Source: Thiothrix subterranea (GTDB taxonomy: Bacteria; Pseudomonadota; Gammaproteobacteria; Thiotrichales; Thiotrichaceae). Taken from it: DNA of 64,000 nucleotides. The notes beneath the pieces were generated by a model that saw nothing but the letters and a program-made list of their open reading frames with translations, ran no database searches and was not told the DNA's origin. The stretch spans positions 1,788,001 to 1,852,000 of the forward strand of contig NZ_CP133217.1 in the NCBI RefSeq assembly GCF_030930995.1, read 5' to 3'. Below are positions 45,689-62,592 of this stretch, in pieces. Each line of letters opens with the position of its first letter. Position 1 is the stretch's first letter. A program made the translations under genes and the position numbers.

Positions 45689-46522
45689 ATGTCAGATGTA
45701 AGCCAACTGCAACGCATTATCGAAGAAGCCTTCGAGCGCCGCGCCGACATCAACCCGCGCAATGCAGAAGCGCAAACCCGTGATGCCGTCAATGAGGCGT
45801 TGGAACTGCTGAATGCCGGTAAATTGCGCATTGCCACCCAACACGGCGTGGGTAATTGGGAAGTGAATCAGTGGCTGAAAAAAGCCGTGCTGCTGTCATT
45901 CCGCTTGAATGATAACGAAGTGATGGATGGCGGTTGCACCAACTATTACGACAAAGTGCCGTCCAAATTTGCGGGCATGAGCGCGGATGAATTTGCCGCT
46001 GGTGGCGTGCGCGTCGTGCCGAATGCGATTGCACGGCGTGGCGCTTACATCGCTCCGGGCTGTGTGCTGATGCCATCTTACGTGAATATCGGTGCGTATG
46101 TGGATAGCGGCACGATGGTGGATACGTGGGCAACGGTTGGTTCTTGCGCACAAATCGGTAAGAACGTGCATTTGTCTGGCGGCGTAGGCATCGGCGGCGT
46201 ATTAGAGCCAGTGCAAGCGGGCCCGACGATTATCGAAGACAACTGCTTCATCGGCGCACGTTCTGAAGTTGTCGAAGGCGTGATTGTGGAAGAGGGCGCG
46301 GTGATTTCAATGGGTGTTTATATCGGTCAAAGTACACGCATTTATGACCGCGAAACTGGCGAAGTCATGTACGGGCGCGTGCCAGCGGGTTCGGTCGTTG
46401 TATCCGGCAACCTGCCATCCAGCGATGGCAAATACAGCCTGTATTGCGCGGTTATCGTGAAGAAAGTTGACGCGAAAACCCGCAGCAAAGTGGGCATCAA
46501 CGAACTGTTGCGCGACATCTAA
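45689..46522 (+). CDS. dapD: Tetrahydrodipicolinate N-succinyltransferase
   Basis: DapD succinylates tetrahydrodipicolinate; the product is transaminated by DapC. The 277-residue protein has an N-terminal helical domain and a left-handed beta-helix of hexapeptide repeats ([51 protein letters not shown]). ATG 45689 has GGAG seven bases upstream; ATG 45677 in frame overlaps that site. It is the second gene of a dapC-dapD operon. Confidence 0.96.
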
Positions 46523-46533
46523 GTATTTATGTG

Positions 46534-46558
46534 GCGGGGGAAGAGAGGCTTTCCCCGC
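46534..46558 (+). terminator. Hairpin after dapD
   Basis: A ten-base-pair stem GCGGGGGAAG/CTTTCCCCGC (one G-T pair) with a five-base loop begins 12 bp after the dapD stop. No T tract follows, so termination is likely factor-assisted or the hairpin protects the 3' end. Confidence 0.45.
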
Positions 46559-46699
46559 TATCAATGAAAAAGACAACAAGGCTCTAAGCCTCAGTAATTT
46601 TTTAATAAATTAAAATAATGATAGATCATAAAATGATGGATTTTTCAGCCTCTCGCACGTAAGCTGCGGTGTAGTCTACACCATAGGAATACATTGGCG

Positions 46700-47935
46700 A
46701 TGCGTCTATTGCACACTTCTGATTGGCACTTAGGTCAAGTCTTACACCATTTTGAACGTACCGTAGAACACGCTGATTTTCTGGCTTGGTTACTGAATAT
46801 TCTTGAGCAAGAACAGGTGGATGCCTTGTTGATAGCAGGGGATATTTTCGACAATGCCAATCCTTCAGCAGCTTCACAACGCCAGCTTTACCGCTTTCTG
46901 AGTGATGCACGTTTACGTATTCCGCATCTTAATATTGTTCTGATAGCAGGAAATCATGACTCTGCGGGGCGATTGGAGGCATCAGACCCATTGCTTGCGT
47001 GGTTTGATGCGGTGGTGGTCGGACAAGTTAGTCGTTTGCCAGATGGTAGTGTGGATGTGGCGCGTTTGGTTGTTCCGCTGAAAGACCGTACAGGGAAGGT
47101 GCAGGCATGGTGCTTGGTGGTTCCGTTTTTGCGCCCCTCTGATGTGCCAAAAGTGGAAACAAGTGGTGATACCTATGCCGCAGGTGTCGCAAGCCTTTAC
47201 CGACAAGCCTTTGAATATGCTTGTTCGCTGCGTCAACAGGGAGATGCCCTGGTGGCGATGGGGCATTGTCACATGACTGGTGGGGAGGTGTCAGTGGAGT
47301 CAGAACGTCGCATTGTCATTGGTAATATAGAAGCCTTGTCTGCGAATCTGTTTAACCCTGAGCTTGCTTACGTTGCGTTGGGGCATTTACACCTTGCTCA
47401 AAAAGTAGGTGGTCATGAACACATTCGCTACAGTGGCAGCCCTCTGCCTTTATCTTTTTCCGAAATCAACTATCCTCATCAGGTTTTGCGGGTAGATATT
47501 GTTGGCGAGAAATTGGTATCGATACAGCCTATTCCTGTGCCAAGAGCTATTGAGTTATTACGTATTCCTGCTAAACCAATGCCGTTGATACTGGTTGAAG
47601 GCATCCTTGCTCAACTGAGTTTGCCTCAGGTAGCGGAGAGTCGTTGGCCTTATTTGACAGTGCGGGTTCTGTTGGAAGCACCCGAACCTAATTTACGCGC
47701 TCGTATCGAGGTGGCGTTGCAAGGTAAACCAGTACGTTTAGCAAAAATCGAAATTACTACACCTTCTTCTAATGTTCCAGATGTTAGCCCCGACTTGTCA
47801 TTGGACGCTTTGAATGCCTTAACTCCAGAGGACATTTTTCAGCAGATTTACCGACAAAAATACGCTAGTGAGTTACCGGAAACCTTACAGCTTGCTTTTG
47901 CTGAATTACTTGCTCATACGGAGATGCAAGCATGA
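46700..47935 (+). CDS. sbcD: Exonuclease subunit SbcD
   Basis: SbcD is the Mre11-type nuclease subunit of the SbcCD complex, which cuts hairpins and blocked DNA ends. The 411-residue protein has the metallophosphatase motifs DWHLGQ, GDIFDNA, GNHDS, GHCH and GHLH, and a C-terminal SbcD capping region. ATG 46700 gives the canonical start MRLLHTSDWHLG; TTG 46694 in frame is closer to GGAA. It overlaps sbcC by four bases (ATGA). Confidence 0.95.
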   Translation: MRLLHTSDWHLGQVLHHFERTVEHADFLAWLLNILEQEQVDALLIAGDIFDNANPSAASQRQLYRFLSDARLRIPHLNIVLIAGNHDSAGRLEASDPLLAWFDAVVVGQVSRLPDGSVDVARLVVPLKDRTGKVQAWCLVVPFLRPSDVPKVETSGDTYAAGVASLYRQAFEYACSLRQQGDALVAMGHCHMTGGEVSVESERRIVIGNIEALSANLFNPELAYVALGHLHLAQKVGGHEHIRYSGSPLPLSFSEINYPHQVLRVDIVGEKLVSIQPIPVPRAIELLRIPAKPMPLILVEGILAQLSLPQVAESRWPYLTVRVLLEAPEPNLRARIEVALQGKPVRLAKIEITTPSSNVPDVSPDLSLDALNALTPEDIFQQIYRQKYASELPETLQLAFAELLAHTEMQA

Positions 47936-50900
47936 AAATTCTGGCTATTCGTGGAAAGAATTTGGCGTCGCTAGCTCGTGAATTTGCAGTGGATTTTTGT
48001 TCTGAACCACTGGCATCTAGCGGTATTTTTGCAATTACAGGCCCAACGGGAGCGGGTAAAAGCACCTTATTGGATGCTTTGTGTTTAGCCTTATACGACA
48101 ACACGCCACGTCTACTACACGCCAATGCTAGAAATAGCAATTTGCCAGATGTGGTGGGCGAATCCATTGCATCACGTGATCCTCGCACTATTTTGCGGCG
48201 CGGTGCCGGTGATGGTTTTGCGGAAGTTGATTTTCTTGGTAATGATCGAGTCGCTTACCGTTCCAGATGGAGTGTGCGCCGCGCTCGCGGAAGAGCCGAT
48301 GGTAAGTTGCAAGCGGTAGAAATGACGTTATTGCGTTTGCCCGATTTGACACCTGTTAGTGGTAAGCTAAAAACTGAGGTGTTGCCCGCTGTTGAAGTAC
48401 GCATTGGGTTGACTTTTCCTCAGTTTACCCGTGCGGTATTACTGGCGCAAAACGAATTTGCGGCGTTTCTCAAAGCCCCAGATGATGAACGTGCTGAATT
48501 ACTGGAAACGTTGACAGGTACGGATCAATTTAGCCAGCTTTCAGTAAATGCTTATCAACGGGCAAAGCAAGAAAGTGAATTTAAACAACGTTTACACGCT
48601 AAGCTGGGTGATCTTAAACCGCTGGATGTTGATGAACGGTTGACGCTTGAATCTGAGCGTGATGTTATTCGTTTGGAAAATCAGCAACACATTCAGCAGC
48701 ATGACCATATTAATGCGCAGTTACGTTGGCATGAAACATGGAAGCAGCTCAAACAGGCTGAAGATAGTGCTAGAGCCGCATTGGAATATGCGCTATCTGA
48801 TAAAGAATCCGCAGCAGAGCGTGAATTGCACTTTCAAGGTGTCGAAGCAGTTCAGTTATTGCGCCCTCAATTGGATGAACTTGATCGTGCGAGTCGTGCA
48901 TGGGAAATCAGCCAAGTTGATGTTATCCGGTTTAAAGGCGAGTGGGAGCAAGCGGTTGTTGCACTGACACAGGCTGAGGCTGATTTAACACGTGCTGAAC
49001 TGCATTATCAACAAGCAGAACAAGCACAAGCGCTTGCCCAGCCTCATTTGCAACAGGCGAAGACGCTCGATACGTTGATTGCTGCCAGCCTGCCTGACCT
49101 TGAGCAGGCGAAACAAGTGCTTGAGCATTGTAGTGCTGATTGGGAAAGCAGATGTTTAGCTGTTATTAAATGCCAAGGGGAGTTGGAAAATGCCACAGCA
49201 GCCCTGAAACAAGCCACCATTGAGTTGCAACAAGCCGAGCAACGGCAACAACAAGCAGAACAAGCACAAGCGCTTGCCCAGCCTCATTTGCAACAGGCGA
49301 AGACGCTCGATACGTTGATTGCTGCCAGCCTGCCTGACCTTGAGCAAGCAACACAAGTACTTAAGCATTGCAGTGCTGATTGGGAAAGCAGATGTTTAGC
49401 TGTTACCAAATACGAAGGGGAGTTAGAAAATGCCACAGCAATCCTGAAACAAGCCAGTATTGAATTGCAACAAGCCGAGCAACGGCAACAACAAGCAGAC
49501 CAAGCACAAGCGTTTGCCCAGCCCTTTCTACAACAAGCAAAGACGCTTGATGCATTGATTGCTGCCAGCCTGCCTGACCTTGAGCAAGCGAAACAAGTAC
49601 TTGAGCATTGCCGTGCTGATTGGGAAAGCAGGTGTTTAGCTGTTACCAAATGTCAAGGGGAGTTGGAAAATGCCACAGCAGCCCTGAAACAAGCCACCAT
49701 TGAGTTGCAACAAGCCGAGCAACGGCAACAACAAGCAGAACAAACGCAGGCACTTGCGCAGCCCCTTCTACAACAAGCAAAGACGCTTGATGCATTGATT
49801 GCTGCCAGCTTGCCTGATCTTGAACAAGCGCAACAGGCATTTGATGATGCACACATCGTAAGTACGCAAGTTCAGCAAGCCTTACAATTGCAACAAATTG
49901 CTCTCCAGCAAACGGTAGTGGAACTTGCCAAAACAAATGCATGGTTGGTAGATAATTCGCATTTAGTATTATTGGGCAAGGATTGGGGGCGCTGGGATAC
50001 TTTATTCACCCAAGCAGCTAACATTCAGCATTCATTGCTTAGTAATAAAAGACAGTTGAGATTGTCGCAGGGTGTGCTGCAACGAACTCGTGAAGCTGCT
50101 AATGCGGCACAATTGCGTCAGACCAATAGCAATGTGAGTTTGGAGCAAGCTCAAGAGGCTCTTGATACTGCGAGTGCAGGGTATAATCAATTTAATGCAC
50201 CCGATTTAGTTACGCGCAAGCAGTTGCATCAACGACAGTACAACCAAATCATCGACACCATTCAGTGTTGGAAAAAACTTGATGAAATCACGCGCAATCG
50301 CGCATTAATGACTGAACAACTACAAAAATTAACAGAAACGCGTGTTGCTACTGAAGCGTTGCATAGTGTTGCGGTCGCGCAGCAACCTGCTGTAGAGCAG
50401 GTGTTGCTACAAGCTGAGCGTTCACTGCGCTTGGCTGAATTGGCTTGTCATGGAAATGTTGAAAGTTTGCGCGCCGTTTTGACGCCGGATGCACCTTGTC
50501 CGGTTTGTGGTGCAACCGAACACCCTTATGTGCAAATGAATCCGCATTTTGATGCGCTACTAGAAAATTTGCGCAGCGATGCAACCCGTTGTCGCCATGA
50601 GCGTGATATTGTACAGGCACAGTTGTCGAAATATCAGGTGCAATTAGCGTCTATTCAAGCAGATCACATGCTCCGTACTGAGGCGTTAATAGCGTTGGAT
50701 CGTGAAATTGAAATTCAGGATTCTGATTGGAATAATCGCGAGCTTGTTCGAGTCGCCACTCAAAATCAAGATACGGATCGAGATTGGTTCAAATGGCTGA
50801 ACACCAATAAAAGTCTTACAGAACAAACTTTGGCAACGTTATTTGAGCAAGAAGAAGCTTTGCATATTGCCGCCCAACAGCGTGATGCTGCTCAACAGGT

Positions 50901-53097
50901 CGTCAACAAAGCCAATGATGAGCATGGTAAAGCTAAAAATTTACTCAATGAAGCGTTACAGGCGCGGCAACAGGCGGAACATGCCTACGATGCGTTATCA
51001 AGCACTGTCGCGGAGCAAGAAAAACAGTGTGAAGAACGTCTAGCTGCATTGGATGCTGCATTTTCCAATACTGATTGGAGAATGGATTGGATGCTTGATG
51101 CTCAGGCATTTTATTGCGCCCGCCAAGTGGAGGCGTCAGATTGGCAAGAGCAGCAACAAGCGGCGAGTAGGCTAAATGTGGAGATCGGAACACTAGAAAT
51201 AAAAAGCAATGCGTTGGCAGCAGAATCTGCGCAATCTACGACGTTGCTTGCACAAGCACGTAGCCGTTTCGATGCGCTTACGCTGGAATTACAAACCAAA
51301 CAAACTGAGCGTCAGCAATTATTTGATGGAAGGGCGGCGGCCGAAGTAGAAGTAGAATTGAGTCGTGAACTGGAGGATGCACAACGAATCCATCAGCTAA
51401 AACGCGCTTCTCACGGGCATACCAGTCATACCCATTTGCAAGCTCAGGCGAATTTTCAGCAAGCGCATGTGCTAACTGAAAATACGCAGGCATTGCTTGC
51501 ACAAGCACGTAGCCGTTTCGATGCGCTCACACTGGAATTACAAACCAAGCAAACTGAGCGTCAGCAATTATTTGATGGAAGGGCAGCGGCAGAAGTAGAA
51601 GCAGAATTTAATCATGAACTGAGGGATGCACAACAAGTCCATCAGCTAAAACGTGTTTCTCACGGGCAAGCTAGTCACACACATTTGCAAGCTGAGGCGA
51701 ATTTGCAGCAAGCCCATGTGTTAACTGAAAGTACACAGGCATTGCTTGCACAAGCACGTAGCCGTTTCGATGCGCTTACGTTGGAATTACAAACCAAGCA
51801 AACCGAGAGTCAGCAATTATTTGATGGAAGGGCAGCGGTCGAAGTAGAAGTAGAATTGAGTCGTGAACTGGAGGATGCACAACGAATCCATCAGCTAAAA
51901 CGCGCTTCTCACGGGCATACCAGTCATACCCATTTGCAAGCTCAGGCGAATTTTCAGCAAGCGCATGTGCTAACTGAAAATACGCAGGCATTGCTTGCAC
52001 AAGCACGTAGCCGTTTCGATGCGCTTACACTGGAATTACAAACCAAGCAAACTGAGCGTCAGCAACTGTTTGAGGGGAGGGCTGTGGAGGCAGTTGAGTT
52101 AGCGTTAAGCAGCAACATTTCTTCTACTCGTCAAGCGTTCAGTAAGCAGCAGGCGTTCCATCAGCAACTTAGTCACACACAGACGCAAGCTATTACCCAT
52201 TTGCAACAAGCTCAGATTTTGTCTGACAAGCGGCAATCTGCCCACACTTTAGCAACGAAAGCACTTAGCGAAAGGGATATTCCCAGATTACGTGTTTTGT
52301 TGGCACATGATATGGATTGGATACGCAATGAACGCGAATTTTTTCAACAGTTGAAAACCAACATCACTAATTGCCAGAGTGTGTTAGTTGACCGTTCTGC
52401 TGCGTTGGCTACGCATCAGGTTAAACGGGTAGGTTTGGAGAGTGCTGACGAACTCACAGCGCTTTCGGCACAAGCTCAAACAAATATTGAACGTACTAAA
52501 ATGCTGTTGGCGACCAAGGAACTTGATTTGCGCCGAGATGATGAGTGCCGTCAGCAAGCAGTTAACGTGTTGACGGCAATTGCTCAGCACGAAGTTCATG
52601 CTAAAGTTTGGGAACAACTCAATGAGCTGATTGGCTCAGCCGATGGCAAGAAATTTCGCAATTTTGCTCAGCAATTCAGTCTCGATGTGTTATTAGGATA
52701 TGCTAACCGGCATCTGGTTGAGTTGTCACGTCGTTACGTTCTCAAACGCGTCAAGAATAGCTTAGCTTTGCTAGTGGTGGATCAGGATCTTGGGGATGAG
52801 TATCGCTCAGTGCATTCGTTATCTGGCGGTGAGTCCTTTTTGGTGTCGTTGGCCTTGGCTTTGGGATTGGCATCGCTCTCTTCTCAACGTGTCAGGGTGG
52901 AATCATTATTTATTGACGAAGGGTTTGGCAGTCTGGATGCTGATTCCCTGAGAGTGGCAATGGATGCACTCGACAACTTGCAAGCTCAGGGGCGTAAAGT
53001 TGGCGTCATTTCCCACGTACAGGAAATGACTGAACGAATCGGGGTACAGGTGCAAGTCAAGCGTTTATCAGGAGGACAGAGTTGCTTAGTGATTTAG
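47932..53097 (+). CDS. sbcC: Giant SbcC (Rad50-like) ATPase with expanded coiled coil
   Basis: SbcC is the SMC/Rad50-type ATPase that tethers and positions DNA for SbcD. At 1,721 residues it is far longer than the usual 1,000-1,250. The head halves are intact: Walker A GPTGAGKST near residue 40, and at the C-terminus SLSGGESFLVSLALALG with Walker B FIDEGFGSLD. The zinc hook CPVC is at residues 856-859, nearly the exact middle. The extra length comes from tandem repeats, 80 residues each at about 364-637 and 83 residues each at about 1105-1436. These lie at similar distances either side of the hook and so face each other in the folded antiparallel coil. The frame is open throughout. Confidence 0.95.
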   Translation: MKILAIRGKNLASLAREFAVDFCSEPLASSGIFAITGPTGAGKSTLLDALCLALYDNTPRLLHANARNSNLPDVVGESIASRDPRTILRRGAGDGFAEVDFLGNDRVAYRSRWSVRRARGRADGKLQAVEMTLLRLPDLTPVSGKLKTEVLPAVEVRIGLTFPQFTRAVLLAQNEFAAFLKAPDDERAELLETLTGTDQFSQLSVNAYQRAKQESEFKQRLHAKLGDLKPLDVDERLTLESERDVIRLENQQHIQQHDHINAQLRWHETWKQLKQAEDSARAALEYALSDKESAAERELHFQGVEAVQLLRPQLDELDRASRAWEISQVDVIRFKGEWEQAVVALTQAEADLTRAELHYQQAEQAQALAQPHLQQAKTLDTLIAASLPDLEQAKQVLEHCSADWESRCLAVIKCQGELENATAALKQATIELQQAEQRQQQAEQAQALAQPHLQQAKTLDTLIAASLPDLEQATQVLKHCSADWESRCLAVTKYEGELENATAILKQASIELQQAEQRQQQADQAQAFAQPFLQQAKTLDALIAASLPDLEQAKQVLEHCRADWESRCLAVTKCQGELENATAALKQATIELQQAEQRQQQAEQTQALAQPLLQQAKTLDALIAASLPDLEQAQQAFDDAHIVSTQVQQALQLQQIALQQTVVELAKTNAWLVDNSHLVLLGKDWGRWDTLFTQAANIQHSLLSNKRQLRLSQGVLQRTREAANAAQLRQTNSNVSLEQAQEALDTASAGYNQFNAPDLVTRKQLHQRQYNQIIDTIQCWKKLDEITRNRALMTEQLQKLTETRVATEALHSVAVAQQPAVEQVLLQAERSLRLAELACHGNVESLRAVLTPDAPCPVCGATEHPYVQMNPHFDALLENLRSDATRCRHERDIVQAQLSKYQVQLASIQADHMLRTEALIALDREIEIQDSDWNNRELVRVATQNQDTDRDWFKWLNTNKSLTEQTLATLFEQEEALHIAAQQRDAAQQVVNKANDEHGKAKNLLNEALQARQQAEHAYDALSSTVAEQEKQCEERLAALDAAFSNTDWRMDWMLDAQAFYCARQVEASDWQEQQQAASRLNVEIGTLEIKSNALAAESAQSTTLLAQARSRFDALTLELQTKQTERQQLFDGRAAAEVEVELSRELEDAQRIHQLKRASHGHTSHTHLQAQANFQQAHVLTENTQALLAQARSRFDALTLELQTKQTERQQLFDGRAAAEVEAEFNHELRDAQQVHQLKRVSHGQASHTHLQAEANLQQAHVLTESTQALLAQARSRFDALTLELQTKQTESQQLFDGRAAVEVEVELSRELEDAQRIHQLKRASHGHTSHTHLQAQANFQQAHVLTENTQALLAQARSRFDALTLELQTKQTERQQLFEGRAVEAVELALSSNISSTRQAFSKQQAFHQQLSHTQTQAITHLQQAQILSDKRQSAHTLATKALSERDIPRLRVLLAHDMDWIRNEREFFQQLKTNITNCQSVLVDRSAALATHQVKRVGLESADELTALSAQAQTNIERTKMLLATKELDLRRDDECRQQAVNVLTAIAQHEVHAKVWEQLNELIGSADGKKFRNFAQQFSLDVLLGYANRHLVELSRRYVLKRVKNSLALLVVDQDLGDEYRSVHSLSGGESFLVSLALALGLASLSSQRVRVESLFIDEGFGSLDADSLRVAMDALDNLQAQGRKVGVISHVQEMTERIGVQVQVKRLSGGQSCLVI
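49021..49840 (+). repeat. 240-bp tandem repeat in the N-terminal arm of sbcC
   Basis: About 3.4 copies with an exact period of 240 bp (80 codons); units start at 49021, 49261, 49501 and 49741, the last partial. Each encodes a Gln/Ala/Leu-rich helical segment with AQPxLQQAKTLD, LIAASLPDLEQA, HCxADWESRCLAV and ATIELQQAEQRQQQ. DNA identity between units is high by eye, indicating recent amplification or gene conversion. Confidence 0.93.
51244..52239 (+). repeat. 249-bp tandem repeat in the C-terminal arm of sbcC
   Basis: Units with a period of exactly 249 bp (83 codons) start at 51244, 51493, 51742 and 51991; the fourth diverges after about 90 bp. Each encodes LLAQARSRFDALTLELQTKQ, then QQLFDGRAA and HQLKRxSHG. 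The first and third units are almost identical, while the second differs, giving an A-B-A'-C pattern that suggests a two-unit duplication. Confidence 0.93.
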
Positions 53098-53153
53098 CTT
53101 GGCTGTTCAAGTAGCATAAAATGCAATAAGCTTGGATTCCATTTCACAGGCGC

Positions 53154-54773
53154 TTAACGCAACATTTGGAGCAGCGCCCGATACTTGGGCGTTTCTCCAG
53201 CCGCTTGATTAATATGCTCTTTCACCCCCCAACTGCCGTAAGCCTGATAGGTGCGCGGTGCTGAAAACGCCACAAACAAGCTATTTCCGGTAATTTTCTG
53301 CCAGCCCTCCAGAAACTCGACGTACAACGCTTCCATTGGTTGCGCCCGGTTTGCACCGATGTATTGCGGGTTGGGGAAGTCGCGGATGGAATGGGATTTA
53401 CGATCTACTAAATGCTGCCCGCCCTCGTAAGCAATCAGTTTCACGCCGTATTGTTTGGCAAGATCGGCCTGCTTTTGCACCATCGTCAGCACGTTTTGAA
53501 TGGAATAAGCATTGCGGTCGTCTTTTAACAGTTTAAAGACATCTTCGGTGCTGCGCACTTCGGCTTGCTGGCGTTCGTGAACGTAGAAATACGGGGCAAT
53601 CGCAAATGCATCAATGTGGCGGTGCGCTTGGTTATAACTGAGCAATATTTCACTTAAACGGGGATTTGCCGACCAACCGCTCAGCACGCGCACCAAGCGC
53701 TTGGTGTTACCGAAGGCTTGTTCCCACAGCCGGAACACTTCTAGCGAACGTTTGACGTAATACTTGTGACCGGCTTGCGGCGGGTCGGTGTCGAGTTTTT
53801 GTTGCAGCCCCATTTGCTTGGTGTAATGCGCTTGGGTAAAAGCTGGGTTCCACGCTTCATTGGTGTATTCCACGTAGGCTTTTAAGTGGGGGCGCAGGTG
53901 TTGTTGCACATACTCAGCGTATTGGCGCACGAGGTCATCATTCGCCGCGTGGGGAATGTTGAACCACGCATCGGCATTCAGGCGATTCGCTAACGCAACC
54001 ATGATTTCCAGTGGTGCGCCGCGTTTGCCTTCTGCCCCTGCCCAAGTGGCTTGGCTGAGGCGTGGCATTTGTTCCCACTGGCTGAGCGGATTGCGGGTAA
54101 TGCCCGACATATTCATGAAGCGGATTGTTTTGAAATCACGCATAAAATTCAGATAGTCGGGATTAAACACAATGCTGTCGTAATGGCTTGTAAAATCGCG
54201 GTAGTCACCGTCACAGTGTTGCGCACTGTTAACGCGCTGGAATGGGTTGCTGGCACAAATGCCCCCCGGCAGCAGCACGCGAATATTACGCAAATAGTTA
54301 TCGGGGTTAGATTGTTGAATCGTCAGCGTGACTTTGAAAAACTGGTCAGCCCCAGCAGCAATCTGAATGAGGTCTTTGCCGGGCAAGCGTTTGATGAGTT
54401 TGGCATCATCACCATAGACCAATTCGCCTTCACCGTCGTACAACACCGTGTACTGCCCCTCTGGTAATGTACCCGCAGGCAACCAGTGCAACAGATTAGT
54501 ACCTGCTTGCCCACCATTGAGCTGTTGCGGCCAGCCGTCAGCATCGTAAACAATGTTACCATGCGTAAGCTTGGCATCTGCTTCAGCAAATGGCAGCGCC
54601 ATTTTGAATAAGTTGACGAAGGGAACGCTGGAATCGACCTGCATCACTTCGTTAGTATTCATGCCGATAGGCAAGTGAGCGGCGTGTGTTGGCAGTGTGG
54701 TAGATATGAGACAAAAAAAGCCCAAAATAATATGCCAAACAGATTTTTTTATCACGGTCACAAGCAATTCCAT
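53154..54773 (-). CDS. Secreted protein, glycoside hydrolase clan-like
   Basis: A 539-residue exported protein with a signal peptide (VWHIILGFFCLISTTLP to THAA). The N-terminal half is beta-rich and the C-terminal half looks like a TIM barrel: IRFMNMSG, AWFNIPHAANDD, the acid/base-like segment YVEYTNEAWNP, FAIAPYF and a second glutamate in IAYEGGQHLV. Paired Glu residues in this arrangement are typical of clan A glycosidases; the substrate is unknown. ATG 54773 is used, but GTG codons at 54761 and 54755 are possible and no start has a strong ribosome binding site. It is isolated between sbcC and a lytic transglycosylase. Confidence 0.6.
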   Translation of the reverse strand: MELLVTVIKKSVWHIILGFFCLISTTLPTHAAHLPIGMNTNEVMQVDSSVPFVNLFKMALPFAEADAKLTHGNIVYDADGWPQQLNGGQAGTNLLHWLPAGTLPEGQYTVLYDGEGELVYGDDAKLIKRLPGKDLIQIAAGADQFFKVTLTIQQSNPDNYLRNIRVLLPGGICASNPFQRVNSAQHCDGDYRDFTSHYDSIVFNPDYLNFMRDFKTIRFMNMSGITRNPLSQWEQMPRLSQATWAGAEGKRGAPLEIMVALANRLNADAWFNIPHAANDDLVRQYAEYVQQHLRPHLKAYVEYTNEAWNPAFTQAHYTKQMGLQQKLDTDPPQAGHKYYVKRSLEVFRLWEQAFGNTKRLVRVLSGWSANPRLSEILLSYNQAHRHIDAFAIAPYFYVHERQQAEVRSTEDVFKLLKDDRNAYSIQNVLTMVQKQADLAKQYGVKLIAYEGGQHLVDRKSHSIRDFPNPQYIGANRAQPMEALYVEFLEGWQKITGNSLFVAFSAPRTYQAYGSWGVKEHINQAAGETPKYRALLQMLR

Positions 54774-57949: not shown

Positions 57950-58033
57950 AAAAATGAGGCATACAAATACGGTGATCAAGTTAATCTGACCGATGCAGAA
58001 TCCCACATCATGCCCGTAGCAGTTAGTCAATAG
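57950..58033 (+). pseudogene. Transposase remnant
   Basis: A short open stretch encodes KNEAYKYGDQVNLTD, then AESHIMPVAVSQ and a stop. The DQVNLTDxESxIMP sequence is characteristic of the mid-part of IS1182-like transposases. No start, catalytic core or terminal repeats remain, so this is a decayed fragment. It lies 150 bp upstream of the helicase gene at the point where base composition turns AT-rich. The rest of the gap 57773-58182 holds no recognisable gene. Confidence 0.5.
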
Positions 58034-58182
58034 GATAGAAGAAGATTAAGTCCGCGTATGGCTTGATGCTGTGTCTTGTGGGTCACAACGGAACTACCGA
58101 AGAGCTGGTAAAGTTCATGATGTTTCTTTGGATGTGTTAAAGTATCCAACCTCATAAAGATTTAGTATTGGGTTATATTTTT

Positions 58183-61100
58183 ATGTCTATTTTATCGGGT
58201 CTCTATAATGATTTTGTCCAAGTGCTAACGGGTCAACAGCCAACGAGTCAACAGCCAACGAGTCAACAGCCAACGAGTCAACAGCCAACGAGTCAACAGC
58301 CAACGAGTCAACAGCCAACGAGTCAACAGCCAACGAGTCAACAGCCAACGAGTCAACAGCCAACGAGTCAACAGCCAACGAGTCAACAGCCAACGAGTCA
58401 ACAGCCAACGAGTCAACAGCCAACGAGTCAACAGCCAACGAGTCAACAGCCAACGAGTCAACAGCCAACGAGTCAACAGCCAACGAGTCAACAGCCAACG
58501 AGTCAACAGCCAACGAGTCAACAGCCAACGAGTCAACAGCCAACGAGTCAACAGCCAACGAGTCAACAGCCAATGAGTCAACAGCCAATGAGTCAACAGC
58601 CAATGAGCGTAACAGGCTGCAATCAGCTAGGTAATCTTTACTGGCGTTTACCTGATACTGAAGCAAAGAATCCAAAGCAGATTACGTTAGAACGATTTGG
58701 AAAAAGCCTTAAAGGGGCATTTCGTCAATATCAAAAGCATCTTTTCTTCACTGATCTACTCAATCTTGACTTTGAAAATCGTGCAGAAAAATTCCTCACG
58801 GATTTCTTCCTAAATTCATTTGATATTGCTATTCCAGTCAATCTTGCCAACCTTTCTTTACAAGATAATTCCGATAAGCGTATTGCGTTATCTATTCGTA
58901 TTCCTTTTCATCCAATTTTTAATAACGGTAAGTTACCAAGCAATATTGCTATATCCGTTGTGGGTTATTGTCCAACAGCAAGTCAAAACCCCATTTTTAT
59001 TCCTGAAAGAGTATTTTTAACACACGGTCAATTTGAAGCCACTTCGTATGAATCACAGGTTGAAGTGAATTTTCGTCAGTTGGGTGAAGGACGATATCCT
59101 GAACGTGGACAAAGAAATGTACTAATGCCTGAATTTACTAAAGCCTTGCCTAAATATGCCGTTAAAACCATGCGGCGATTAGAAAATTGGATTGATTTTT
59201 TAACTTTTAAAGAGAACTTGATCCGACAGAAAACCCAAGGGTTACGTTATTTTCAGTGGTCGTTCAAGGAAGAGAAAGGACAGGTGGAACTCTTGGTGAT
59301 GGCAGAGAACAATCTAGCTCTAAAACAAGCGGGCAAAGCCTTTAATCGCCAAAATTTACATGCATTCGATTTAAAAACATCAACGTGTCCGTATCGCTTT
59401 TCTTTGCCACAAAATAGTGCAGGTGAGCGAGTAGATAGTGCTTTCAGTAATTTTGGACAATTGGCGAATAATGGTTTAAAAGCAATACAGGATAATCACC
59501 CTGATAAAAAACTGATTCAGACGTGTAATTCCTATCGTCAGATGCTGAAAAAAGAAGATCCACAAGGTTTGTTTGACTTTGATAAGGTGGTATTTGCCAA
59601 TTTAGTTGTGGAAGTATCGGAGGAGTTGAATAACCGTATTAGTCAGTTAGAAGATGATGTGTTAGTTGATACGGATGCTGCAAAAGGGGAAAAAGTCGGT
59701 CGAAGTCGTACCGAGAAGATTAATGCGCTTTTCAATAAAATACCTGAAAAAGGATTTATTTCTATTTCATTGGTTGGTGATTTATCGTTGGTAGGACGTC
59801 ACCGTCGAGCTGTGAATAATTTGCGTCAAAACGAAGGTTGTTATGCACCTTATCTTTCAAGTTATTTATTTGATATTACGAACGCCAACCAGCCTGCAGA
59901 AATTCCCGAAATCACGGAATGGGAAAATCAAAGTCTGAACGAAAAGCAAAAATCAGCGGTGCAAAAAATGCTGGCTGCACCTGATATTTGCTTGATTCAA
60001 GGTCCACCTGGTACAGGAAAAACCACCGTGATTGCGGAAGCTTGTTTGCAATTTGCCAAGCGTGGTGAATCTGTATTGCTAGCAAGTCAAGCACACGATG
60101 CTTTGGATAATGCGTTATCTCGCTTGCAAGACAATCCGAATCTGCGTGCGATTCGCTTGGCAAGATATGCTAGCCGTATTACGGATGATGGCAAAGAATT
60201 TACAGGGGAAAATGTTTTAAGCAAGCAATATGTGGCGTTGCGAAACTATTTGACACGCGAATACCTGAAACCGCAAGATGATTTAAACGCCAAAATTGAG
60301 GAATCAATGGATTGGTTGAATCAAGCTAATTATGTGGTATACGACTTAACGAAGCTCCGAGATAGTTATCAGCAAAATCACGAAGCATTAATCCAAGCCC
60401 AAGCAGTTTTAACGGAATCGCAAGCTCAGTTTGATGCACAAATGGTGGCTTACAAACGTCAACAACAAGATTCGTTAGCAATGCAACAATTGATTGCTTT
60501 TTTAGAAAGTGGAGTGGGTGCGAATACCTTGTCGAGCTTAACTCTTCGCCTACCTGAATTTGTTTATCTATTGGCGGAAAAGTTGTGTGGCTTACAAGCA
60601 GTGAAAATTGATCAGCGTTTTTCTTACAGTGGCTTTTTGGCTAAATCGGAAAATCAGTTGGCAATTTTAGGTATCTTGTTTAGTCGTTGGCAATGGGTGC
60701 TACAGGCGATGCCGAAAATGCAATTAGATTTGGAACGCTTAAATGATTGTCGAGATGGTCAGTTGCTGGATATACAAACAAAGTTGAAAATTGACGCATT
60801 AGAACAAGAAATTTCGGTACTGGCGAAGCGACTTGAAGATGAAGACGATGATGATTTGACCTTGAAATGGAAACAAAAACGAAGAGAAGTGCGAAGCCTA
60901 AAAGAGAACCAAGCCAGTGGCTTAAATGGCGACTATTACCAGCTATTTAGCGATGCGGATCGTTTCACCCAAATGGACGATATCCCAGCAGTAAAAAGCT
61001 TGTTGAGCCAACGTTTGGAAGAGCTAAAAAAGCAAAAAGCGATTATTTCCCCACTTACATCGCAAGTAATTACACAATTGCAGCAAGCGCAAAGTCAGAC

Positions 61101-62592
61101 TACAGCACAGCAACCTAATGAAAGTACGGTCAAGATGGCACAGGCTAATATTAATCAGCTATCTGAGCGAGAAATGCAGTTGGTGCAAAAAAGTCAGCAG
61201 AAAAGGGATTTATCGAAAACCTTGTTGATGCAATCAGGATTTGATACAACTAATCACATTGAAGACGTGGTAGCGGAGCAAAAAAAACAGGTTGAGCAAT
61301 GGAAAGTCGAGTTAGATGAAATACGTCGTCAAAATCAAGATTTCCAACCACTATTTCACCGTTGGCGAACAATGTTGGCGGAGCCTGAAAAACGTGCTAG
61401 CGCAGACTGGAATGAGCTGAAAGAACCTTATATTGATAGTTGTAACTTGGTGGCGATTTCGTGCAATGAAGATGAAAAGACTTTAACTAATGCAGGTTTT
61501 GATGGTTTTGATGTGGTCATTATTGATGAAGTTTCTAAAGCTACTCCGTTGGAGTTATTGCTGCCGTTAATGCGTGGCAAAAAAGCTATTCTTGTTGGTG
61601 ACCACCGTCAGTTACCGCCAGTATTCAATGAGGCAGATGGTTTAACATTTGAAGATGAAGTAGAGCAAAACGAAGCACAAGCGGAAGAAGAAAATCAGCC
61701 TGCGAAAACGGATTTAACCAAAGATAATCTGCATAAATTTGAAAAAATGGTTACAGCGAGCTTATTTAAGGAATTGTTTGAGCAAGCCCCTGACAGTCTG
61801 CGTGAACGGCTGAATATTCAGTTCCGTATGCACCATGACATTATGCGAATGATCAACTTCTTTTACGAAGGCCAGTTAGAATGCGGTAATCCTGATGCGG
61901 CACGCCTACACGGTATTGAATTCAAAACGATAAACAACCGCTTATTAGGAAAAAACGATCATTTACTATGGATTGATACCACTAATGATGAAACCGGCAA
62001 GCATTTTTCGATTAATCAAAATCAAGGCAATACCAACCTGCTGGAGGCTCGCTTAATTGCGTTGACCTTGGTGGAAATAAACCGCCAACTAGAGGTAAGT
62101 GGGGAATATGGCAAAAATAATAAATTGAAAGTCGGCATAGTCTCTTTCTATCAACCCCAGTGTCGGAGCATTCGTGATGAGATTCGCAGTGTCAATAATC
62201 GACAACTGAGCTTCAGTGCTATTGATGTGGAAATCAACACCGTCATTCGTTATCAAGGTAAAGAAAAGCCGATTATCTTGCTCAGTTTGGTGAAAAATAA
62301 CGGCGGCGATCTTAACCAAAAATTCCACGCTGGAAGAGCTAACATCGCACGATTTGAATTTATCAATGTGGCAATGTCTCGGGCACAGAATTTGTTGTTG
62401 GTGTTTGGGGCAAGAAATATGTTGGAAAATCGGGAAGTGAAATTGCCGAGAATGGATAGACAAGGCTATGACAAGAAAATGGTTTACAAACAAATGTTTG
62501 GGTATTTGGAGCATCAAACCGAAACAGGTGGTTTATGCGAAGCCGCAGAATTTGCCCAAACCTTACCAATTTTCAATAACCCGAAAAAATAG
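58183..62592 (+). CDS. Superfamily 1 (UPF1-like) helicase with N-terminal QPTSQ tandem repeat
   Basis: A 1,469-residue protein. Residues 17-141 are 25 copies of a five-residue unit (QPTSQ, the last three with Met for Thr). Residues about 145-600 form an unrecognised domain. The helicase core has Walker A GPPGTGKTT at about 607, QAHDALDNAL (motif Ia), Walker B VVIIDEVSKA at about 1112, VGDHRQLPP at about 1137, QFRMHHDIM at about 1213 and VAMSRAQNLLLVFG at about 1395. A coiled-coil insertion of about 450 residues separates Walker A from B. ATG 58183 is used; a TTG lies at 58168. Base composition is AT-richer than the rest of the window. It is followed 9 bp later by the next gene. A role in defence or RNA/DNA remodelling is possible but unproven. 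Confidence 0.88.
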   Translation: MSILSGLYNDFVQVLTGQQPTSQQPTSQQPTSQQPTSQQPTSQQPTSQQPTSQQPTSQQPTSQQPTSQQPTSQQPTSQQPTSQQPTSQQPTSQQPTSQQPTSQQPTSQQPTSQQPTSQQPTSQQPTSQQPMSQQPMSQQPMSVTGCNQLGNLYWRLPDTEAKNPKQITLERFGKSLKGAFRQYQKHLFFTDLLNLDFENRAEKFLTDFFLNSFDIAIPVNLANLSLQDNSDKRIALSIRIPFHPIFNNGKLPSNIAISVVGYCPTASQNPIFIPERVFLTHGQFEATSYESQVEVNFRQLGEGRYPERGQRNVLMPEFTKALPKYAVKTMRRLENWIDFLTFKENLIRQKTQGLRYFQWSFKEEKGQVELLVMAENNLALKQAGKAFNRQNLHAFDLKTSTCPYRFSLPQNSAGERVDSAFSNFGQLANNGLKAIQDNHPDKKLIQTCNSYRQMLKKEDPQGLFDFDKVVFANLVVEVSEELNNRISQLEDDVLVDTDAAKGEKVGRSRTEKINALFNKIPEKGFISISLVGDLSLVGRHRRAVNNLRQNEGCYAPYLSSYLFDITNANQPAEIPEITEWENQSLNEKQKSAVQKMLAAPDICLIQGPPGTGKTTVIAEACLQFAKRGESVLLASQAHDALDNALSRLQDNPNLRAIRLARYASRITDDGKEFTGENVLSKQYVALRNYLTREYLKPQDDLNAKIEESMDWLNQANYVVYDLTKLRDSYQQNHEALIQAQAVLTESQAQFDAQMVAYKRQQQDSLAMQQLIAFLESGVGANTLSSLTLRLPEFVYLLAEKLCGLQAVKIDQRFSYSGFLAKSENQLAILGILFSRWQWVLQAMPKMQLDLERLNDCRDGQLLDIQTKLKIDALEQEISVLAKRLEDEDDDDLTLKWKQKRREVRSLKENQASGLNGDYYQLFSDADRFTQMDDIPAVKSLLSQRLEELKKQKAIISPLTSQVITQLQQAQSQTTAQQPNESTVKMAQANINQLSEREMQLVQKSQQKRDLSKTLLMQSGFDTTNHIEDVVAEQKKQVEQWKVELDEIRRQNQDFQPLFHRWRTMLAEPEKRASADWNELKEPYIDSCNLVAISCNEDEKTLTNAGFDGFDVVIIDEVSKATPLELLLPLMRGKKAILVGDHRQLPPVFNEADGLTFEDEVEQNEAQAEEENQPAKTDLTKDNLHKFEKMVTASLFKELFEQAPDSLRERLNIQFRMHHDIMRMINFFYEGQLECGNPDAARLHGIEFKTINNRLLGKNDHLLWIDTTNDETGKHFSINQNQGNTNLLEARLIALTLVEINRQLEVSGEYGKNNKLKVGIVSFYQPQCRSIRDEIRSVNNRQLSFSAIDVEINTVIRYQGKEKPIILLSLVKNNGGDLNQKFHAGRANIARFEFINVAMSRAQNLLLVFGARNMLENREVKLPRMDRQGYDKKMVYKQMFGYLEHQTETGGLCEAAEFAQTLPIFNNPKK
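58232..58606 (+). repeat. 25-copy 15-bp tandem repeat (VNTR) in the helicase gene
   Basis: The unit GTCAACAGCCAACGA is repeated without interruption from 58232; the last three copies have T for C (CAATGA). That is 22 identical plus 3 variant units, 375 bp. Because 15 is divisible by three, copy-number change alters protein length without frameshift. Near-perfect identity implies active slippage or recombination. Confidence 0.97.

Follow-up and report, generated by a model that had tools for sequence, protein, structure and literature searches.

The arms of prokaryotic Smc proteins have multimodal lengths in steps of about 100 aa and their length is constrained, as described in the passages of Buermann et al. 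(2017; PMC5344682) considered here, where the viability of Smc proteins with resized arms recurred every 91 aa, close to the superhelical period of about 99. The same passages indicate that Rad50 probably follows stepwise arm lengths, and call the relevance of periodic elements in Rad50 unclear (PMC5344682). High-speed atomic force microscopy of Escherichia coli SbcCD, in the part of that report considered here, showed the two arms in contact up to about their middle, followed by a sharp curve (PMC6969161). A change of length without loss of register is a general problem of SMC and Rad50 proteins, since a change in one strand disrupts the pairing if its partner does not follow.

The SbcC protein described here is encoded in a window of 64,000 nucleotides (the whole stretch of DNA analyzed) from Thiothrix subterranea and offers a natural case in which the steps of such a change can be read from the sequence, as two unrelated repeat arrays with an equal gain of copies. 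A first-pass annotation of the window, made from the sequence alone, had pointed out the arrays; the present analysis adds that a conserved motif pair spanning both strands, with a half on either arm, lies within the repeated piece. Repeat-expanded SbcC arms were not found among the matches listed by a literature search by title, and we regard the protein as a new variant form of SbcC/Rad50.

Relatives and Measurements

The length of the N-arm (N) was taken from P-loop to hook and that of the C-arm (C) from hook to the LSGGE signature, both being independent of start codons; hook distances were used instead of total lengths because the start residues of the relatives had been assigned by motif. 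At E <= 1e-3, a match to SbcC was found in 3 of 16 genomes of the genus, the window's own counted, and the family gave matches in 30 of 63 genomes. Three wider surveys with the first 300 residues, run on overlapping samples, matched 38 of 370 genomes at an E limit of 1e-25, 96 of 397 at 1e-20, and 67 of 399 at 1e-25. An alignment-based scan of named genomes yielded 80 loci, 63 of which gave a parsed gene and 17 none. The proteins measured from the family search and the three wider surveys were those of the fetched loci only, a subset of all matches. Extraction yielded 140 relatives (L164 was excluded from this set) and 137 were measured, two being dropped for an unmatched P-loop (L038 and L047) and one for an unmatched hook/signature (L067); these 137 relatives are mutually related and their data points are not independent.

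A single-protein pattern search of the genome contigs found no close relatives, the same patterns had no match in viral contigs, and a DNA search of plasmids with the first 969 bases returned three weak records. The protein search of plasmids returned 80 records at E <= 1e-20, none of which aligned with 80% of the query at a single place; the best 15 of the 80 span about 2.9-3.7 kb each. Very long survey frames (up to 2,537 codons) were considered as further giants and rejected as upstream read-through, the proteins themselves having 1,139-1,342 aa; every surveyed frame above 1,345 codons besides the window's own was fetched for this check, and the exception among the long frames was that of G768 (L164), which stops 196 residues past the hook. 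Several short survey frames (e.g., 328-760 codons) were broken or at contig ends. Matches from PADLOC were just short shared segments, and Foldseek with the structure model returned SMC-family and other coiled coils at an uninformative query TM of 0.06-0.15.

The sbcDC Gene Pair

The features of the locus are collected in Table 1. The product of sbcD scored 197.1 bits against TIGR00619 (cut-off 77.65) and has Metallophos and SbcD_C domains, both above cut-off, which places a partner nuclease gene (SbcD/Mre11) next to sbcC, as is characteristic of SbcC/Rad50. The CxxC apex of this family is also present, since the CPVC located by the first-pass annotation at residues 856-859 of 1,721 was confirmed in the open reading frame and is invariant with the hook of nine aligned relatives. 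Moreover, the protein has all five motifs of the ABC-type ATPase half-heads at both ends that define SbcC/Rad50 (Walker A at residue 37, Q-loop at 170, signature at 1630, Walker B at 1659, and H-loop at 1692), with AAA_23 at 71 bits and SbcC_Walker_B at 42.2 bits (cut-off 27 for both). The scores against the full-length NCBIfam models were under their cut-offs (238.3/478.5 bits for TIGR00618 and 357.1/750 bits for NF007600), and these low scores do not come from the expansion alone because the two unexpanded relatives tried were also under them (L034 249.7/369.8 and L083 261/412.5). An SMC protein proper was considered and rejected, since the apex has a CPVC hook and none of the five Pfam matches is to a hinge family; the score of SMC_N, 38.4 bits, is under its cut-off of 40. 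Judged from these features, the protein is a functional-looking bacterial Rad50 and would presumably be active.

Table 1. Coordinates of the features of the sbcDC locus in the window, with residue numbers of SbcC.
Feature	Position	Strand	Remarks
sbcDC insertion	46523..53153	+	6,631 bp between dapD and convergent gene (blastn)
sbcD	46700..47935	+	411 aa; overlaps sbcC by 4 nt
Giant sbcC	47932..53097	+	1,721 aa; open frame; AAA_23 and SbcC_Walker_B above Pfam cut-offs
N1	49003..49242	+	N-arm unit, aa 358-437
QAKTLD copy 1	49054..49071	+	aa 375, 481 from hook
N2	49243..49482	+	N-arm unit, aa 438-517
QAKTLD copy 2	49294..49311	+	aa 455, 401 from hook
N3	49483..49722	+	N-arm unit, aa 518-597
QAKTLD copy 3	49534..49551	+	aa 535, 321 from hook
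N4	49723..49962	+	Hook-proximal N-arm unit, aa 598-677; repeat-like only over about first 38 aa
QAKTLD copy 4	49774..49791	+	aa 615, 241 from hook, the most frequent distance among relatives
Zinc hook CPVC	50497..50508	+	aa 856-859
C1	51244..51492	+	Hook-proximal C-arm unit, aa 1105-1187
LFDGR copy 1	51319..51333	+	aa 1130, 274 from hook; most frequent distance among relatives 272
C2	51493..51741	+	C-arm unit, aa 1188-1270
LFDGR copy 2	51568..51582	+	aa 1213, 357 from hook
C3	51742..51990	+	C-arm unit, aa 1271-1353; 6/249 bases differ from C1
LFDGR copy 3	51817..51831	+	aa 1296, 440 from hook
C4	51991..52239	+	Head-proximal C-arm unit, aa 1354-1436; clean repeat only over about first 32 aa
LFEGR copy 4	52066..52080	+	aa 1379, 523 from hook

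The gene pair is an insertion relative to other genomes of the genus. In three congeners (G013, G004, and G014) the site is empty and the sequence beside position 46522 of the window resumes at 53154/53155 (blastn), G006 and G009 have different DNA after dapD, and no match to the SbcC protein was found in these five congeners compared at the dapD site. The GC3 of sbcDC is 0.395-0.398 vs. 0.566-0.606 in four neighbors. Gain by horizontal transfer would be the simplest reading of these data and the most likely one, repeated loss being a possible alternative. Synonymous divergence of the flanks from G013 (Ks 0.16-0.42) is similar to that between the repeat copies.

Two further congeners, G010 (L203) and G001 (L204), carry an SbcC of another type, with a CPLC hook and about 1,223 aa (proteins in L038 and L039). 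Its loci show no similarity to positions 40001-62000 of the window, so SbcC types appear to be gained and lost within the genus. Within the compared stretches, DNA similarity to G013, G006, and G014 stops at 57962, and what lies to the right of this point may differ from species to species. An open reading frame of 1,474 aa at 58168-62592 (+) contains a GPPGTGKT P-loop and looks helicase/ATPase-like by eye; about 25 TSQQP copies stand at its start, from a 15-bp tandem repeat (58227-58607, 99% match).

Repeat Arrays and the Mid-Arm Motif Pair

TRF, at a score threshold of 50, reported an array with a period of 240 and 3.4 copies on the N-arm (49009-49835, 90% match, score 1316) and another with a period of 249 and 3.4 copies on the C-arm (51244-52082, 89% match, score 1433). 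An N-arm unit is 80 aa long and a C-arm unit 83 aa, and the hook lies between the two arrays. The N-arm result agrees with the first-pass estimate of about 3.4 units of 80 residues; on the C-arm, for which about four units of 83 had been given, the unit size stands and the count is corrected to three clean units with a partial fourth. The net gain relative to the relatives is three units on each arm. No likeness between N-units and C-units was detectable at the protein or DNA level, the local score of N3 vs. C2 (28) being no better than the shuffle mean (29.7), and the two repeats are unrelated, as had been proposed. Among the full-unit copies of each arm (N1-N3 and C1-C3), 6-28 of 240/249 bases differ between any two, and the genome of 4.41 Mb is in two contigs, that of the window having 4.26 Mb; an assembly artefact is unlikely to be the source of the repeats.

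Alignment of the relatives to L083 defined one motif on each arm, xAKxLD on the N-arm and an LFxGR-like motif on the C-arm. The distance from xAKxLD to the hook is 241 residues in 56 of the 112 alignable relatives and 243 in 19 (full range 139-284), and that from the LFxGR-like motif is 272 in 22 relatives, 268 in 12, and 257 in another 12 (full range 160-371); relatives with the motifs at 241/272 include Proteobacteria and Bacteroidota. While the relatives have one pair, the window SbcC has four, at hook distances of 241/274, 321/357, 401/440, and 481/523, each repeat unit carrying one half of the pair. The hook-side copies occupy the usual place of the single copy of the relatives, and the partner offset drifts through 33, 36, 39, and 42 because a C-unit exceeds an N-unit by 3 residues. 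The distance between the P-loop and the head-proximal N-motif, 338 residues (819-481), is the same as in relatives with N = 579 and the motif at 241. Past the repeats, the C-arm has about 10-16 residues fewer than that of L034-L036 and L083 (251 residues from the head-side C-motif to the signature vs. 261-267), and arm balance is kept despite the 3-residue excess of each C-unit because this head-side part is slightly shorter.

Among the N-units, N4 is the most relative-like, with the best collapsed-alignment score for all six relatives tried; on the C-arm, where only C1 and C4 were compared, C4 was closer to the relatives in four of six cases and C1 in one, with one tie. The Ks values were 0.19 for N1/N2, 0.33 for N1/N3, and 0.40 for N3/N4 (over 38 codons), and 0.26 for C1/C2, 0.08 for C1/C3, and 0.33 for C1/C4 (over 32 codons). 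With standard errors of 0.04-0.15, the ages of the copies on the two arms overlap within error, the order in which the arms expanded was not resolvable by repeat Ks, and gene conversion may blur the copy ages. Only one base differs between C1 and C3 over their last 153 bases, a near-identity that looks as if it came from recent duplication or conversion. The Ka/Ks ratios among full-unit copies (0.13-0.34) indicate that the copies diverged under constraint after duplication.

Arm-Length Balance Among SbcC Proteins

In the window SbcC, N is 819 and C is 774, which gives a C minus N of -45; in the 137 relatives N runs from 474 to 610 and C from 421 to 760. The first-pass annotation had asked whether the arms change together across relatives, and they do: the Theil-Sen line has a slope of 1.0 (nominal 95% range 0.81-1.15) and an intercept of -41, with a Pearson r of 0.68, and it predicts C = 778 for the window protein, 4 residues off the observed value. 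Growth of one arm, derived from 249 or 240 added residues, would give C minus N near -294 (N only) or +195 (C only). The difference lies between -55 and -35, that is, within 10 of -45, in 74 of the 137 relatives, and equals -50, -42, and -48 in L034, L035, and L036, the closest family members (1,239-1,252 aa, hook at 615-616). The balance is loose among relatives, with C minus N from -97 (L138) to +182 (L089). A large N-arm gain is otherwise unseen because no P-loop-to-hook distance exceeds 610 residues in the 137 measured relatives, and no relatives with intermediate repeat copy numbers were found among those measured. Matched growth that keeps the register, which was the outcome postulated in the earlier claim of compensatory selection, is well supported, and we infer selection as its cause.

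Relatives with one arm expanded and the other not, named by the first-pass annotation as evidence against its reading, were found (L089 with +182, L092, L110, and others with smaller differences). The SbcC of Chitinasiproducens palmae (L089; 1,468 aa, N 578, C 760) is the longest one measured besides that of the window; its C-arm excess consists of several inserts of varied composition, and a lag scan gave no strong internal repeat. Members of Duganella and Pseudoduganella reach C 623 at N 577. Many C-arm inserts are P/G/S/T/N/D-rich and lie about 90, 200, and 410 residues from the hook, while coil-like inserts of 26-41 residues were aligned on the C-arm of L168 and L076. The CPLC class (N 507-517) shows a modest C-arm excess, with C minus N of about -21 to +71, whereas L138 is unbalanced the opposite way (N 526, C 429). 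Both arms of L167 are longer than in its class (N 610, C 566, difference -44), and its largest N-arm insert is of low complexity. Overall, one-sided growth in the relatives was nearly always on the C-arm, often loop-like and sometimes coil-like, and no tandem array was seen behind the one-armed excess of the unbalanced relatives.

The arms of SbcC proteins, those of L161 and L176 included, also fall into discrete classes, with P-loop to hook distances of 474-481, 494-526, and 562-583. Short SbcCs of 1,076-1,108 aa (e.g., L064, L072, and L073) have both motifs nearer the hook (171/184 in L064), so hook-side segments, too, are lost or gained on both arms alike.

Probable Pairing of the Arms

Covariation was calculated as mutual information with average-product correction in 95 relatives and summed along diagonals. 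For the N-arm stretches 150-240 and 200-280 residues from the hook, the best diagonals were at offsets 37 and 36 (4.58 and 4.77), with a second peak about 7 residues further on in both, compared with 2.90 and 3.81 for the largest antidiagonals and 2.44 and 3.26 for diagonals more than 20 away. The margin was small for the stretches 30-120 (offset 0, 3.64 vs. controls of 3.15 and 3.37) and 90-180 (offset 17, 3.90 vs. 3.72 and 3.16). The stretch 240-330 gave no covariation support (best diagonal 3.21 vs. control 3.60), and at 300-390 the best diagonal (-187) was implausible and covariation was not above controls. Pairing around the ancestral motif, with hook distance 241 opposite about 277 and the C-motif at 272, is supported by this covariation. 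Because it sets the motif stretches of the relatives opposite each other, the unit that was multiplied in register seems to be a joint module made of both strands. The earlier proposal that the expanded blocks face each other holds as far as the overlapping hook distances and the covariation around the ancestral motif pair go, and is unsupported further headward.

The AlphaFold2 run with residues 310-1500 and 29 relatives gave a mean pLDDT of 68.5 and a pTM of 0.37. The pLDDT of the single-copy arms near the hook was mostly 78-89 and was lower in the hook itself and in the extra units, N1-N3 and C2-C4 being unresolved because relatives with a single module add no depth to the alignment in these units. 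Next to the two motifs, the helices break at 609-612, 625-626, and 1128-1135, where there are local dips (pLDDT about 56-64), and more breaks occur away from the motifs. As regards a matched antiparallel coil, arm balance agrees with it and covariation supports the ancestral pair, while the model is of low confidence in the repeats.

Discussion

The rod of this SbcC probably became longer when a two-stranded module of the mid-arm increased from a single copy to four, with the register kept by selection. Each module would consist of an 80-residue N-unit (xAKxLD) paired with an 83-residue C-unit (LFxGR) in an antiparallel coil, and the extra modules would presumably pair in the same way. The DNA for the two strands of the module is about 1.3 kb apart and would have been amplified separately. 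Variants with one arm much longer were presumably removed by selection against mismatch, because neither the head-proximal coil nor the two ATPase half-heads would stay in register with arms that differ by 240 residues. The outcome would be a rod with about 240 residues more per arm, or about 36 nm at 0.15 nm per residue, and four mid-arm joints instead of one, the hook and heads being unchanged. The support for this course of events comes from one case, without intermediates.

Independent growth of the arrays by neutral replication slippage, with a match by chance and the extra units looping out as side hairpins from a rod core of unchanged length, is rather unlikely. Tandem arrays arise readily and only a single case is at hand; besides, C-only gains exist, that of L089 (+182) being near the +195 of a C-only expansion, and the inserts of some relatives (L076 and L168) are coil-like. 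However, N exceeds 610 in none of the 137 relatives, many of the C-only inserts are P/G/S/T/N/D-rich and differ in this from the repeat units, in which the P+G fraction is 0.02-0.04, and the net gains match within a few residues in units that carry partner halves of a conserved motif pair. SbcCD itself has a role in repeat metabolism, a possible source of instability, and the two arrays could have been coupled through mutation, if repeat instability of the gene or lineage expanded both at like rates and the register were a by-product. The copy ages overlap (Ks 0.19-0.40 on the N-arm and 0.08-0.33 on the C-arm), C1 and C3 are one base apart over their last 153 bases, and another tandem array lies 5 kb away, but the unit of that array is only 15 bp long and belongs to another protein, and like rates alone are not expected to give equal copy number, near-equal units, and opposed placement, which makes such coupling quite improbable in our view.

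An assembly artefact or a decaying pseudogene would be in keeping with the absence of sbcDC at the site in all five congeners compared. We consider this very improbable, given a two-contig genome, full-unit copies that differ at 6-28 of 240/249 bases, a frame open over 1,721 codons with intact ATPase and hook motifs, and Ka/Ks well below 1 between full copies.

Beyond the multiplication of a paired module in register, we tentatively suggest, as a serious possibility that falls short of being probable, that xAKxLD/LFxGR is a discrete mechanical joint, both strands of which were amplified in register, and that the window SbcC is a multi-jointed rod with four joints in series on each arm. The mid-arm curving of E. 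coli SbcCD, as described in the part of that report considered here, would fit a joint at this place (PMC6969161). If true, the four-joint rod would be longer and differently flexible, and SbcC arms would evolve by whole paired modules added or lost. The conserved mid-arm motif pair is open to mutation, deletion, or multiplication in laboratory SbcCD.

Among the described systems, we know of no repeat expansion in E. coli SbcC (1,048 aa; PDB 6s6v, 7yzo, and others), which is 673 residues shorter than the window SbcC and was matched by phmmer at E 2.2e-85, with the best stretch in the C-terminal head region. The arm lengths treated in the passages of PMC5344682 considered here are means of the two arms of SMC/condensin proteins and involve engineered resizing, whereas the window SbcC represents natural growth of a Rad50-type protein by repeats; its gain in units of 80/83 aa, a net 240 per arm, is no integer multiple of the periods of 91-99 given there. 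The SbcCs of Chitinasiproducens (L089), Duganella (L092 and L088), and Pseudoduganella (L110) are enlarged like that of the window, but only on the C-arm, with an N-arm of normal length and many P/G/S/T/N/D-rich inserts. The CPVC-type SbcCs of about 1,240 aa (e.g., L034, L035, L036, L083, and L062) are like the window SbcC in heads, hook type, architecture, and hook-proximal motif positions and similar to it in C minus N, and differ in having one joint module instead of four, with a P-loop to hook distance of about 579 instead of 819.
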